NCBI GenBank assembly: GCA_028280065.1
Contig: JANQMN010000049.1
Coordinates: forward strand, 1-54,870
DNA: 54,870 nt
Direction: 5' to 3'
Origin: Hahella sp.
GTDB taxonomy: Bacteria > Pseudomonadota > Gammaproteobacteria > Pseudomonadales > Oleiphilaceae
In this document: piece after piece, positions 4,405 to 7,809 of the stretch
Layout: every line of letters starts with the position of its first letter
Numbering within the stretch: position 1 is the first letter of the stretch
The notes under the pieces: generated by a model
Told to the model about the DNA's origin: nothing
What the model saw: the letters and a program-made list of their open reading frames with translations, nothing else
Databases searched by the model: none
Program-made: the position numbers and the translations under genes

Positions 4405-4432
4405 TTGTAAACTAATTTTATTACCTTAAAAT
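4405..4432 (+). promoter_or_regulatory. Predicted sigma-70 promoter of the RHH-CHAD-ParA operon
   Basis: TTGTAA at 4405-4410 and TAAAAT at 4427-4432, spaced by 16 bp, precede the start codon at 4470. The -10 box abuts the tandem TGACGTCA-type repeats at 4432-4447, so a repressor bound there would block this promoter. Prediction from sequence only. Confidence 0.5.
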
Positions 4433-4447
4433 GACGTCATTACGTCA
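4432..4447 (+). promoter_or_regulatory. Tandem 8-bp repeats, candidate RHH operator or centromere-like site
   Basis: TGACGTCA (4432-4439, itself a palindrome) is followed directly by TTACGTCA (4440-4447), one base different. Contiguous 8-bp repeats overlapping a -10/+1 region are the usual arrangement for ribbon-helix-helix dimers of the ParG/omega/CopG kind, which both repress their own operon and form a segregation complex. The RHH gene starts 22 bp downstream. Its role is inferred. Confidence 0.55.
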
Positions 4448-4469
4448 CTGCTATTCCAAGTGGAGACCT

Positions 4470-4658
4470 ATGAGCAAGCGTAAAGATGAAGACAAGGGAA
4501 AAGACCAGGACAAAGAGAAAGGCAAGAAGAACACCTCTCTCCGGCTCGATCCAAAAACCCTGAAAGCTTTAAAGATAGCTGCAGCAGAAGAAGGCGTAAG
4601 TATTCAGCATATTGTTGAAAAGCTTGTAATCGATTATTTGAATAAACGGAAAAAATGA
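4470..4658 (+). CDS. Small ribbon-helix-helix DNA-binding protein
   Basis: 62 aa. An N-terminal tail of about 20 residues, nearly all Lys/Asp/Glu/Gly (KRKDEDKGKDQDKEKGKK), precedes a ribbon-helix-helix core: strand TSLRLD (about 22-27), helix KTLKALKIAAAEEG, then SIQHIVEKLVIDYLNK. RHH dimers insert the strand pair into the DNA major groove. I chose ATG 4470 because GGAGA lies just before it (4462-4466); an upstream in-frame start at 4431 would lie inside the tandem operator-like repeats. The stop overlaps the CHAD gene start by 4 bases. Beside a ParA ATPase, a small RHH protein with a flexible charged tail resembles ParG/omega adaptors, so it may be autorepressor, ParA partner, or both. It could also be a plain transcriptional regulator. 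Confidence 0.85.
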   Translation: MSKRKDEDKGKDQDKEKGKKNTSLRLDPKTLKALKIAAAEEGVSIQHIVEKLVIDYLNKRKK

Positions 4659-6238
4659 CCCAGTCAGTATTTGACGCATTCTATGTATCCAGTTCGCTTG
4701 ACCTGGAAGAACTCAGCAAAGCCGTCAAGGCTCCCTACCACTTGCAGCTCACCGCTGAAGAAACGCAACCGTATCAGATTCTTGATACTTTTGATCAGCA
4801 GATTCACGGTCAGCGGAAGATACTGTTCAGCCAAGGTAATCGTTTGCTGTTGTTGGATTGGGCGAAGAGCCTGTCGGATCATCAACAGGCGAAAAAATGG
4901 GCTTTCGTCGAGGAGCTTAACGCTGAATCCCTGCGGCAGGAACTAGGTTATGTCAGCTCCCTGCGCGCTCTGCTGCCGGTACAAACCTTGAAAGGCAGAC
5001 TGATTAACGGAAGTCTGTTGGACGATGAGCAAAAGACCGTCGCGCGGATAATCTGCCTCTGCTTCGAGACCGCACCGGGAAAACTGCTGACGCTTACCGG
5101 GCTCAACAAAATCCGTGGCTACGGCAAAGCCTTTAAATTGCTTGCGGAGTTGTTCAGCCATCCGGCGGAAGACGATCTTACTGCATTTGCAGGAACATGG
5201 GCGCTGTTGGTGCCGGATTTCCTGCCCTATACCAATAAACCGCAGGTAGACTACCTGTCGCAATCCCCGGCATACGAAGTTGCTTCCCGGTTAATTGCTG
5301 CGTACCTGCATACTGCCCGGCTGAATGAAGAGGGTGTATGCGCCGATTTTGATAGTGAATTTCTCCATGATTATAGAATCAGTCTGCGCAAGGTCCGGTC
5401 TATTTTGAGTCTGTTCAAAGGCGTTTTTGACGAAGACGTTACATGCGATTTGAAAACCCGGTTTAGCGACCTCATGCGGCAAACCAACCGGCTGCGGGAC
5501 TTGGATGTTTATCTCTTGGAGCAGGAAAGTTACCTGGCGCTGGTTCCTGAAATACTGCGCAGCGGCCTGCTGACGATGTTCGAGGAGTTTGCCGAAGAAC
5601 GCGACCGCACACAGAAGAAAGTAAAACGCCAGTTCTTGAGTAAGAACTATAAGCAGGAAATGACAGCGCTCCAAAAACTCTGCCCCCATACGCCGGCGCA
5701 AATGAAAAAGGCAGCGGCTGAAACGCTCAAGGTTGGGAGCGACGGGGACTTGCCGGTATTCGATTATGCCAGCGCACTGATTTGGAAGCGTTACCGAAAG
5801 GTCCGCAAACTTGCCAGAAGGATCGATGCGGAAACACCGGATGAGCAAGTGCACGAACTGCGTATCCAGTTTAAAAAAATGCGTTATCTTATGGAGTTTT
5901 TTGCCCCCCTGTATTCGGCCAAGGAGATGAAAACCCTAATCAAATCTCTGCGCCGTCTGCAAAATAGCCTGGGCAAATTCAATGATTGTTCGGTGCAACA
6001 AGAGGCACTGAATGCCCACATTACTGCCCACGCCAACAGTAAACAGGACAACGATTTAGAGATGGTGAAGAGCGTCGGGGCGTTGGTTGCGGCAATTCAT
6101 CAAAGCCAATTGGAAGAGAGAATAAAAATAGTGGCGAATCTTGATAGCTTTACCAGTGACGAAACCAGCACCAAATTTGAACACCTGTTTCACTTGCAAC
6201 CCGCAAACTCGGCGCAACTTGCGGAGAAGAATGTATGA
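4655..6238 (+). CDS. CHAD-domain protein (predicted polyphosphate-binding)
   Basis: 527 aa. The C-terminal half is a CHAD domain, an alpha-helical bundle with conserved His/Arg/Lys that binds inorganic polyphosphate and directs proteins to polyphosphate granules. The paired signatures are visible: HDYRISLRKVR from His238 and HELRIQFKKMRYLMEFF from His400, each within basic amphipathic helices. Many CHAD proteins carry an N-terminal CYTH triphosphatase-like domain; here residues 1-220 are only faintly reminiscent (ILDTFDQQ, then RLLLLDW) and lack an obvious ExExK motif, so this half is unassigned. Both ends overlap neighbours by ATGA (4655-4658 and 6235-6238), implying translational coupling with the RHH and ParA genes. 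No membrane segment or signal peptide, so cytoplasmic. Confidence 0.9.
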   Translation: MTQSVFDAFYVSSSLDLEELSKAVKAPYHLQLTAEETQPYQILDTFDQQIHGQRKILFSQGNRLLLLDWAKSLSDHQQAKKWAFVEELNAESLRQELGYVSSLRALLPVQTLKGRLINGSLLDDEQKTVARIICLCFETAPGKLLTLTGLNKIRGYGKAFKLLAELFSHPAEDDLTAFAGTWALLVPDFLPYTNKPQVDYLSQSPAYEVASRLIAAYLHTARLNEEGVCADFDSEFLHDYRISLRKVRSILSLFKGVFDEDVTCDLKTRFSDLMRQTNRLRDLDVYLLEQESYLALVPEILRSGLLTMFEEFAEERDRTQKKVKRQFLSKNYKQEMTALQKLCPHTPAQMKKAAAETLKVGSDGDLPVFDYASALIWKRYRKVRKLARRIDAETPDEQVHELRIQFKKMRYLMEFFAPLYSAKEMKTLIKSLRRLQNSLGKFNDCSVQQEALNAHITAHANSKQDNDLEMVKSVGALVAAIHQSQLEERIKIVANLDSFTSDETSTKFEHLFHLQPANSAQLAEKNV

Positions 6239-7005
6239 AGATTCTTGCCTGCTATAGCAATAAAGGCGGTGTTGGAAAAACCGCAACGGCGGTGAACTTG
6301 GCGCATGCGTTGGCGGAAAGCGGTCTCAAGGTGTTGCTGTGCGATCTGGACCCCCAAGGCGCTTCCAGTTTTTATTTCCGTATCAAACCTTCGAAAAAGC
6401 TGATCGAAGACGCTTTTTTTCATGACGAGAAACGTTTTGTTAAAGCGATTCGGGGCAGCGATTATCCGAATCTGGATTTGCTTCCGTCGAATATGACATT
6501 TCGCGATTTCGATGTGTTTTTGTCGAACATGAAAAAGAGCGATTCCCGGCTGAAAAAAGCTCTCAGGGCTGTAAAATCCCATTACGATGTGGTGGTGTTG
6601 GACTGCCCGCCAAATATCTCCAAACTCGCGGAAGCCGTTTTCGCAAGCGCTGATATTATTGCGGTGCCGGTTATTCCATCGACCCTATCCGAACGGACCC
6701 TTGAACAACTCTTTGAGTTCTTCGAAGACAATGACTATCCCAAAGGAAAATTGTTGCCATTTTTCTCCATGGTCCAAAACAATAAAAAACTCCACAAGGA
6801 AACCATGGCACGGCTCACCCACCTGTACGGCAAGCGGTTGTTGAATACCCACATTCCATTTGCCGCAGAAATTGAAAAAATGGGAGTTCATCGCGCGCCG
6901 GTAATTACCTTTGCTGCCTATAAACCGGCAGCGAAAGCCTATTGGGGGTTGCAAAAAGAACTGCGTAAACGGCTGCTTCGGATTGGCAGAACTACCGTAA
7001 GATAA
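6235..7005 (+). CDS. ParA/MinD-type ATPase
   Basis: 256 aa. Deviant Walker A KGGVGKT (Lys10 to Thr16) with the signature lysine, CDLDPQG (A' motif) at about 36-42, and VVVLDCPPN Walker B around Asp123. Such ATPases form DNA-bound gradients that segregate plasmids, chromosomes or protein cargo (carboxysomes, chemoreceptor clusters). No ParB homologue lies nearby; the operon partners are a small RHH protein and a CHAD protein, joined by 4-bp overlaps. The basic C-terminus (KELRKRLLRIGRT) could contact nucleoid DNA. The cargo is inferred, not shown. A standard chromosomal Soj-type role is less likely given the operon. Confidence 0.92.
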   Translation: MKILACYSNKGGVGKTATAVNLAHALAESGLKVLLCDLDPQGASSFYFRIKPSKKLIEDAFFHDEKRFVKAIRGSDYPNLDLLPSNMTFRDFDVFLSNMKKSDSRLKKALRAVKSHYDVVVLDCPPNISKLAEAVFASADIIAVPVIPSTLSERTLEQLFEFFEDNDYPKGKLLPFFSMVQNNKKLHKETMARLTHLYGKRLLNTHIPFAAEIEKMGVHRAPVITFAAYKPAAKAYWGLQKELRKRLLRIGRTTVR

Positions 7006-7326: not shown

Positions 7327-7809
7327 ATTGCACGATTCTTTCGACATCCGGTATCTAATACGACCCAACAAACTCCGTCACACGATCAACTCAGATCGAG
7401 ATCCATGCGGCAAAATCCAGGTCAAACTAATATGACCGAAACATAGATTGCGCATCTAGGCGATTAAACCTAGATTCGGCAAAATATGGGTAATTACTTA
7501 GGCTCTGTTGACATTTGGTTACAACGGAAGCGACAACCGAATGTCAACAAGGCCCAAACTTGGAAAGCACCATTAAGCTACCTGAGGTTACCTGCTATTA
7601 ATTGGTTAACTCTTGAAAGAGGTCAATCAATTGGCAATTGAGTGGCGTTAGTATTCGCGTTGCTTATTCAAACTATCTAAAATAATTATACTCAGGTCGA
7701 TTACCACCTGATCCGGATATGCAGAAAGATTGAAACATACTCCTTTGAGCAGTTTTTCGCCGGCTTCGACCCCTTTAGAGATTCACCAGATACACTGAGC
7801 CAAGGGCTG
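7327..7809. other. Non-coding stretch with two hairpins
   Basis: No coding region is recognised between the small protein and the NTF2-like gene. It is AT-rich and contains a 7-bp perfect hairpin (7454-7460/7469-7475) and the 54-bp insertion-sequence-end-like palindrome at 7501-7554. The upstream start codons of the 7069 gene would extend slightly into this stretch. Confidence 0.6.
7501..7554. mobile_element. 54-bp palindrome resembling back-to-back IS terminal repeats
   Basis: The left arm 7501-7520 (GGCTCTGTTGACATTTGGTT) and the reverse complement of 7535-7554 agree at 17 of 20 positions, around a 14-bp centre. GGCTCTGTTG is the kind of terminus seen on IS5/IS6-like elements, so this could be a minimal non-autonomous element or a deletion scar in which only the ends remain. 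I see no clear target-site duplication. A large hairpin acting as a terminator is an alternative, although no T-run follows. Confidence 0.45.

Follow-up and report, generated by a model that had tools for sequence, protein, structure and literature searches.

Judged from sequence, a gene pair encoding a CHAD protein and a ParA-family ATPase is a strong candidate for an ATP-driven means of moving or distributing polyphosphate (polyP) granules. The pair was studied in a stretch of 54,870 nucleotides from Hahella sp. (the window), where it is headed by a gene for a small ribbon-helix-helix (RHH) protein. The core of the system is the CHAD-ParA pair, and the RHH gene is an uncommon addition to it. 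In the best reading, polyP granules are positioned at the expense of ATP, with CHAD as adaptor and the RHH protein mainly as autoregulator; this is given about an even chance of being correct. For the placement of polyP granules, the conserved pair points to candidates for the cargo protein and the motor, which one deletion could put to the test.

Operon layout in the Hahella sp. window

Three open reading frames on the same strand, encoding the RHH, CHAD and ParA proteins in this order, occupy positions 4470-7005. Their coordinates bear out the claim of the first-pass annotation that the genes are linked by 4-bp ATGA overlaps, as such an overlap is present at both junctions. The RHH gene (4470-4658, + strand) encodes 62 amino acids with a Lys-rich tail at residues 1-20 (nt 4470-4529), and a ribosome-site-like GTGGAG is located upstream at 4460-4465. 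The CHAD gene (4655-6238, + strand) encodes 527 amino acids comprising a beta-rich, CYTH-fold-like N-terminal part and a long CHAD domain. The third gene (6235-7005, + strand) encodes a ParA-family ATPase of 256 amino acids with the deviant Walker A motif KGGVGKT. None of the three proteins scored above a model's cut-off among the NCBIfam matches listed (25 of 29 for ParA); the ParA protein gave 94.5 bits with the ParA_partition equivalog NF041546, below the curated cut-off of 180.

The host genome encodes a member of the PPK1 family. A foreign composition of the operon was considered and gave no signal (GC 0.485 versus 0.493 for the window). Useful synteny for locating an empty site was absent across six other species of the genus, and no convincing CHAD of the window kind, no such RHH and no such operon were found in these six species.

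Conservation of the CHAD-ParA pair

A scan of genome contigs with the window CHAD protein yielded two loci only, and whole-genome searches were therefore used. When a ParA subfamily profile was run against 369 genomes from the class of the window, presumably Gammaproteobacteria, CHAD was located directly upstream on the same strand for 43 of 73 ParAs found at E 1e-40 or better. The fraction was 41/48 for ParAs of at least 257 bits, a set picked by likeness to CHAD-linked ParAs because six of these made up the profile (A1), and 0/14 for ParAs below 150 bits. Matches counted as adjacent when they shared a strand and their edges lay -100 to 600 bp from each other, and the two fragments of genome G341 were merged into one row. 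A spacing of exactly -4 bp occurred in 21 of the 43 pairs, that of the window included. The adjacency is thus conserved, with a recurrent -4 bp spacing, and exceeds chance.

As 92 of 135 CHAD matches had no such ParA beside them, ParA is not required wherever CHAD occurs. Among 57 relatives of the window, ParA was present in the short flanks at 5 of 18 CHAD loci. For close ParA relatives from other classes of the phylum, no profile-recognised CHAD was found within 1.5 kb in 23 of 28 cases. The pair is also present in a Chloroflexota MAG. The first-pass annotation had named the absence of a conserved gene order beyond close relatives as a refuting outcome, but such conservation was found: the CHAD-ParA pair is widespread, and the complete RHH-CHAD-ParA trio is present again on six plasmids of Paracoccus, in G545, which like G722 belongs to another class than the window's, and in G1026 of another family.

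The CHAD protein

The Pfam CHAD model (PF05235) matched residues 213-452 of the window protein (5291..6010, + strand) with an E-value of 4.2e-57 and 194 bits, the cut-off being 25.6. By Foldseek, the fold matches polyP-bound CtCHAD (6qv7/6qva) with TM scores by target length of 0.93-0.94 (0.94 for 6qva). Of the ten CtCHAD positions named as polyP contacts in PMC6537752, nine are occupied by Lys, Arg or His in the window CHAD (H238, R241, R245, R281, K378, R381, K382, K430 and R433), and W377 is the only one that is not kept. The CYTH-like N-terminal part (residues about 25-155; 4727..5119, + strand) is rich in beta strands, gave weaker Foldseek matches to ygiF and thiamine triphosphatases, and does not contain the ExExK motif.

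The charge of the CHAD proteins was compared in an alignment of 32 rows (A4), which was made without L059, L077, L084, L109, L110, L080, L081, L083, L089, L094, L095 and the CHAD-less loci. The net charge of the window protein (-1) is the third lowest of the 32. A basic, disordered N-terminus is stated for ParA partners (PMC10241942). The first 40 residues of the aligned CHADs carry net charges from -6 to +6 (-4 in the window protein), and a basic N-terminus is not the rule among them. The idea that charge at the CHAD C-terminus replaces the RHH tail gave a mixed result and was set aside.

The ParA ATPase

The window ParA matched Pfam AAA_31 with an E-value of 3.8e-41. Conservation was assessed in an alignment of 38 rows (A3), from which L059, L077, L084, L109, L110 and every locus lacking a CHAD match were omitted. 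The deviant Walker A signature Lys (K10), the Walker A Lys and Thr (K15 and T16), the catalytic Asp (D39) and the Walker B Asp (D123) are kept in all 38 proteins. The Arg that binds nonspecific DNA in M. xanthus ParA (R238) aligns with E212 of the window protein, and this position is basic in none of the 38 family members. Tracking along the nucleoid, which the first-pass annotation had ascribed to ParA, can therefore not be assumed. Other basic positions such as R220, basic in 37/38 proteins, may serve instead of the canonical Arg.

Phosphate-related genes near the pair

A polyP or phosphate gene (SixA-like, PPK1, PPK2, Ppx, PhoU, PiT, CYTH or NUDIX) was present within about 10 kb of 22 of 45 CHAD-ParA loci, but of only 1 of 16 CHAD-less ParA loci, 7 of which have a ParA of at least 257 bits. 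The p value of 0.0024 for this contrast is only a guide, because the queries were drawn from the very loci compared, some of which are closely related to each other. On one Paracoccus plasmid, about 1.3 kb separate the trio from pst-phoU-phoB genes upstream. The operon itself runs on into CYTH and NUDIX genes in four of the six Paracoccus records and in G545, and into a CYTH gene alone in the other two; the CYTH protein of locus L129 has the ExExK motif. The proposal that polyP is the cargo of an RHH-CHAD-ParA system was thus strengthened as to the cargo, with the polyP-contact residues of CHAD kept and polyP/phosphate genes commoner nearby than at CHAD-less ParA loci, but not as to the RHH protein, which is not part of the core.

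The extension of the operon into CYTH and NUDIX genes, the ExExK motif in L129 and the SixA-like, PPK and Ppx genes near part of the loci would also be expected if the ATPase moved nothing and instead sensed ATP to regulate, or helped to assemble, a polyP-turnover complex of CHAD, CYTH, NUDIX and SixA proteins. The absence of the canonical DNA-binding Arg agrees with such a metabolic switch, as does the proposal in PMC6416229 that the CHAD protein of Acidithiobacillus is functionally linked to PPK1. This is the main rival explanation and is considered possible, if rather improbable.

The ATPase, however, carries the complete set of deviant Walker motifs known from ParA/MinD proteins, most of which have positioning roles, and a switch alone leaves unexplained why CHAD, a granule-surface domain, is its closest partner.

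The RHH protein and its predicted operator

Pfam matches of the 62-residue protein were weak, and none exceeded the gathering score (e.g., RHH_1 with 19.2 versus 20.5 bits and ParG with 14.2 versus 21.4). A putative RHH fold is supported by the AlphaFold2 model, which predicts helices at residues 28-41 and 45-61 and a tail of low confidence at residues 1-20. The best Foldseek match of the model was ParG (1p94), with a probability of 1.00 but an E-value of 0.058; Arc, MatP, PutA and CopG-type entries, all of them RHH proteins, ranked next. The charged tail described in the first-pass annotation is present and is located at the N-terminus. Its Lys-rich composition and low AlphaFold2 confidence agree with the basic, disordered N-terminus expected of ParA partners.

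A promoter-like sequence, TTGTAA-16-TAAAAT (4405..4432, + strand), is located upstream of the RHH gene and has 9/12 consensus matches; taken alone it is weak, because four such sites occur in the region and the shuffle mean is 2.8. A predicted RHH operator (4431..4447, + strand) adjoins it and consists of two 8-bp direct repeats, ATGACGTC and ATTACGTC, with TGACGTCATTACGTCA at 4432-4447. The exact sequence TGACRTCATKACGTCA occurs once in the 6.68-Mb assembly, at the window site. The repeat TGACGTCA is found at -27 upstream of the RHH gene in 6/6 Paracoccus records, at -75 in G545 and about 257 bp upstream of the RHH relative in G042. A search for TGACGTCA repeats in 143 genomes gave five sites, including that of the window, and four of the five are beside an RHH gene. 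The TGACGTCA repeats are thus a predicted operator that accompanies RHH, and they provide a DNA handle for finding more members.

A search for the RHH protein in 398 genomes of the phylum gave four matches at 1e-5, of which G000 and G545 carry the trio and G602 and G755 are weak (27-29 bits). No match to the RHH profile was found in the further CHAD-ParA loci retrieved from the class of the window, where small ORFs were also listed, and RHH was rejected as a core part. The profile was built from five close relatives, and the absence is only as sure as this profile; in three of the loci (L059, L075 and L084) the sequence stops at the CHAD start or no more than about 220 bp from it, and in L178 a divergent RHH-like ORF was recognised by eye. 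In G042 and G985, RHH relatives adjoin an H1-like gene, and CHAD and ParA are absent from the fetched 10 kb.

The RHH protein had been proposed as adaptor or DNA anchor. Autoregulation is better supported, since the predicted operator is what accompanies RHH. A rival reading makes RHH the true ParA partner and DNA tether, so that a CHAD-RHH complex ties granules to DNA, ParA drives them and the trio works unlike the two-gene form. The Lys-rich, low-confidence tail ahead of the RHH core, the fold match to ParG and the position of all tested RHH-bearing ParAs inside one 11-row set (SH-aLRT 99) fit this tether, but NUDIX-only members of the same set have no RHH by the profile, the relatives in G042 and G985 lack both partners in the fetched 10 kb, and the operator adjoins the promoter, which suggests local repression. 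A tether is rated quite unlikely.

The likeness to ParG, the six trio loci on plasmids and a ParA-RHH pair on a Corynebacterium plasmid could also point to a remnant of DNA partition or plasmid maintenance, in which RHH and ParA form a type Ib-like pair and CHAD is a passenger. The common form, however, is CHAD-ParA without a detected RHH, and the repeat site of the window has just two 8-bp repeats and occurs once in the host genome. One of the six Paracoccus plasmid records, pCP157_03, carries its own repABC, and the trio is therefore not the sole partition system of this plasmid. Such a remnant is regarded as very improbable.

Proposed mechanism

In the preferred reading, positioning of polyP granules by the CHAD-ParA pair, CHAD would hold polyP via its basic pore and faces and serve as a granule-bound adaptor. 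The ParA ATPase would cycle, being bound to a surface as an ATP dimer in one state and free in the other. CHAD-coated granules would stimulate ParA hydrolysis on contact and would follow, or spread along, the resulting ParA gradient, and granules might thereby be shared out at division. The RHH protein would bind the TGACGTCA repeats at the operon promoter and thereby set the operon's dose. Contact of its Lys-rich tail with ParA, like that of the ParG tail with ParF, is also possible.

A broader reading would see a widespread, horizontally moving, ATP-driven system for positioning and partition of polyP granules. Where headed by RHH, the system would amount to a self-contained mobile kit (RHH-CHAD-ParA-CYTH-NUDIX) with its own conserved operator, and the RHH tail would also sense or contact polyP and ParA. 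This reading is doubtful. If true, a ParA-type system would for the first time be known to serve a phosphate-storage body, and the RHH-headed kit would place granule dose and position under joint control.

Comparison with known systems

The 2025 review PMC13052382 tables AlgP as a placing factor for polyP granules, states that the Caulobacter proteins responsible for granule placement are not identified, and leaves it to be seen whether localisation of the granules costs energy. In a literature search whose scope excluded preprints and most subscription papers, no paper joined CHAD, ParA, polyphosphate and ribbon-helix-helix, and the portions of papers available contained no description of CHAD-ParA as a granule-positioning system. 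The first-pass annotation treated the combination, as a defined system, as undescribed. This is almost correct, but conservation of a folD-ppk-parA-CHAD cluster in Acidithiobacillus has been published (PMC10892726, PMC6416229). In that cluster CHAD likewise adjoins parA and ppk; the available portions of both papers mention neither RHH nor a positioning role. AlgP of Pseudomonas aeruginosa resembles the present system in its proposed role in polyP-granule spacing (PMC9239181, PMC13052382), but it is a histone-H1-like DNA binder, and its ATP dependence is listed as unknown in PMC13052382.

Carboxysome positioning by McdAB is similar in that a ParA-family ATPase is encoded with a cargo protein and the proposed cargo is a cytoplasmic body. 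In place of McdB, however, the candidate cargo protein of the present, putative system is a CHAD protein predicted to bind polyP, and the canonical DNA-binding Arg of chromosomal ParA is not conserved in the window ParA family. ParF-ParG and omega-delta plasmid partition likewise combine ParA with a small RHH protein that has a basic tail, and in these systems the RHH protein acts at its own promoter. Here, in contrast, the CHAD gene is located between the two, the window has a two-repeat site with no long centromere array seen, and repABC is separate on pCP157_03. The window CHAD differs from phosins and other CHAD proteins (CtCHAD, ygiF and PptA) in its CYTH-like N-terminal part without ExExK and in its coupling to a ParA gene, while it shares with them the CHAD fold and keeps the polyP-contact residues.

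The operon and its proteins

Reading of the open reading frames bore out the gene structure of the first-pass annotation. An RHH gene (4470-4658), a CHAD gene (4655-6238) and a parA gene (6235-7005), all on the forward strand, are joined by two ATGA overlaps. CHAD and ParA were securely named by Pfam, RHH weakly. The AlphaFold2 model of RHH consists of a low-confidence tail, a ribbon region and then two helices, and its top fold match was ParG (E 0.058, probability 1.00), the partner of ParF. A 23-nt inverted repeat (14 nt between the arms, 83% complementary) at 7498-7557, 3' of the operon, could be a mobile-element end.

The CHAD model (pLDDT 87) matched polyP-bound CtCHAD (6qva; TM 0.94 by target length), with weaker matches to ygiF and thiamine triphosphatases. 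A sequence scan found no ExExK motif in this CHAD. The ten CtCHAD positions taken for comparison from the mutation work reported in part of PMC6537752 correspond, as counted along the printed alignment, to H238, R241, R245, R281, W377, K378, R381, K382, K430 and R433, and a basic residue or His is kept at nine of them. K10, K15, T16, D39 and D123 of ParA were kept in 38 of 38 ParAs. The reference position R238 of M. xanthus ParA, as described in the relevant part of PMC12462528, corresponds to E212 and was basic in none of the 38. ParA partners reportedly use a basic, disordered N-terminus (PMC10241942, in part); the N-terminus of RHH is Lys-rich, unlike that of CHAD, which by charge comparison is not of this type.

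CHAD and ParA as the core

Two genes, CHAD and ParA, make up the core of the system, and not all three genes of the first-pass annotation, which had proposed polyP-granule segregation by RHH-CHAD-ParA. A ParA profile (A1) made from six CHAD-linked ParAs was searched against 369 genomes of the window's class, PF05235 was searched across the same genomes, and the ParA and CHAD coordinates were then compared. Among the matches listed, 43 of 73 ParAs were directly preceded by a CHAD gene on their own strand, in a search that favours CHAD-linked ParAs by construction. This arrangement was found for 41 of the 48 ParAs with at least 257 bits, and CHAD was directly upstream of none of the 14 below 150 bits. 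Of 135 CHAD matches, 43 were paired with ParA and 92 were not. The spacing was exactly -4 in 21 of the 43 pairs, that of the window included. The window's genome encodes a further ParA of the wider group (G000:C16:20968-21705; 245 bits) that had no adjoining CHAD in the coordinate comparison; it adjoins a threonyl-tRNA-synthetase-like gene, named by eye.

In relatives of the window's genome ParA lay within the short flanks of only 5 of 18 CHAD loci, and the other six species of the same genus showed no such operon. Of 28 loci of close ParA relatives scanned in the phylum's other classes, 23 showed no CHAD within 1.5 kb by profile. The pair was also present in a Caldilineales (Chloroflexota) MAG, with a ParA 46% identical by tblastn.

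Polyphosphate genes near the pair

Of 45 CHAD-ParA loci, each taken as about 10 kb, 22 contained at least one polyP or phosphate gene. These were SixA-like (11), PPK1, PPK2, Ppx and NUDIX (3 each) and CYTH (2) genes, together with genes identified by eye that we take to be PhoU (3) and PiT (3). One representative each of His_Phos, PPK1, PPK2, Ppx, NUDIX and CYTH was confirmed by Pfam, the NUDIX of locus L075, a query in this count, scoring below the Pfam gathering score. Among CHAD-less ParA loci 1 of 16 had such a gene, a PPK1 directly preceding the ParA. This arrangement is seen at L092 (2741-5759), where the ParA belongs to this group and CHAD is missing. The window's genome encodes a PPK1 family member.

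We give an even chance to the reading that CHAD-ParA is a module which positions polyP granules in an ATP-dependent way, CHAD serving as the adaptor. Its main rival, a metabolic switch, predicts the same gene neighbourhood and is in our judgement less likely.

The RHH-headed form

The three-gene order does occur elsewhere, on Paracoccus plasmids and in genomes G545 and G1026, but it is rare. Of the 398 genomes sampled from the phylum, two (G545 and the window's own) had a strong RHH match, and the ParA profile of the clade was matched at 1e-75 in 2 of 190 genomes of the class of G722, G722 counted.

Six Paracoccus plasmid records, from five strains of three species, carry a small RHH gene ahead of CHAD and ParA, with identities to the window of 61-65% for ParA, 40-43% for CHAD and 60-64% for the RHH core. 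L169 has an ambiguous base within RHH, which is not annotated, and in L131 the ParA annotation is split in two pieces. According to the annotation, CYTH and NUDIX follow 3' of ParA on four records and CYTH only on L169 and L170. On pCP157_03 pst-phoU-phoB lies about 1.3 kb upstream of the trio, with two hypothetical genes in between. G545, of another class, has RHH-CHAD-ParA-CYTH-NUDIX (the last two named by eye), and G1026, of another family of the same order, has RHH-CHAD-ParA with identities of 51% (ParA), 33% (CHAD) and 60% over 42 residues (RHH). In G722, of another class, a small K-rich RHH-like ORF of differing sequence was seen by eye upstream of CHAD-ParA (L178, 3006-3347).

In a quick ParA tree (51 rows, no bootstrap, G1026 left out) the RHH-bearing rows fell inside one set of 11 rows (SH-aLRT 99) that also takes in L076 and three NUDIX-only loci. 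The RHH label needs two changes on this tree, which still allows one origin. On a Corynebacterium mustelae plasmid (L132, 3876-4717) a ParA gene is followed by an RHH gene (44% identity over 41 residues), likely a plasmid partition pair.

The predicted operator

Two 8-bp repeats within TGACGTCATTACGTCA lie upstream of the window's RHH gene, adjoining a promoter-like site. TGACGTCA was found at -27 in all six Paracoccus loci and at -75 in G545, and TGACRTCATKACGTCA occurs exactly once in the window's own genome. The window and Paracoccus sequences supplied a pattern with which 143 genomes of the order were searched. It hit five sites, each in a different genome; read backwards as a control, it gave one site among the matches listed. 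An RHH gene stood beside four of the five sites (window, G042, G985 and G1026), and none was found beside that of G995. Since the G042 site was known before the search and the window was a source of the pattern, two of the four, G985 and G1026, are new predictions that were borne out.

In G042 (L203, 1572-2851) and G985 (L202, 1548-2761) the same operator is followed by a 37-aa Lys-rich ORF, then the RHH relative and finally a Lys/Ala-rich, H1-like protein, possibly a second regulon of this RHH family. No CHAD or ParA was found around these RHH genes by eye or by profile in the 10 kb fetched, and the window CHAD had no match in the whole G042 genome. The site thus stays with RHH even without CHAD and ParA and is its constant companion, so that autoregulation is the best supported of the jobs predicted for RHH from sequence. 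In G795 a CHAD-ParA pair at which no RHH gene was seen is preceded, at a distance of about 10 bp, by TGACGTCA (L177, 3404-3411).

Comparison with known systems

By composition only, the H1-like proteins of G042 and G985 resemble AlgP/PhaF-type tails. A 2025 review (PMC13052382) does not, in the parts examined, name a ParA for polyP granules. Granule positioning is likewise not proposed in the examined parts of PMC10892726 and PMC6416229, which describe a folD-ppk-parA-CHAD neighbourhood in Acidithiobacillus.
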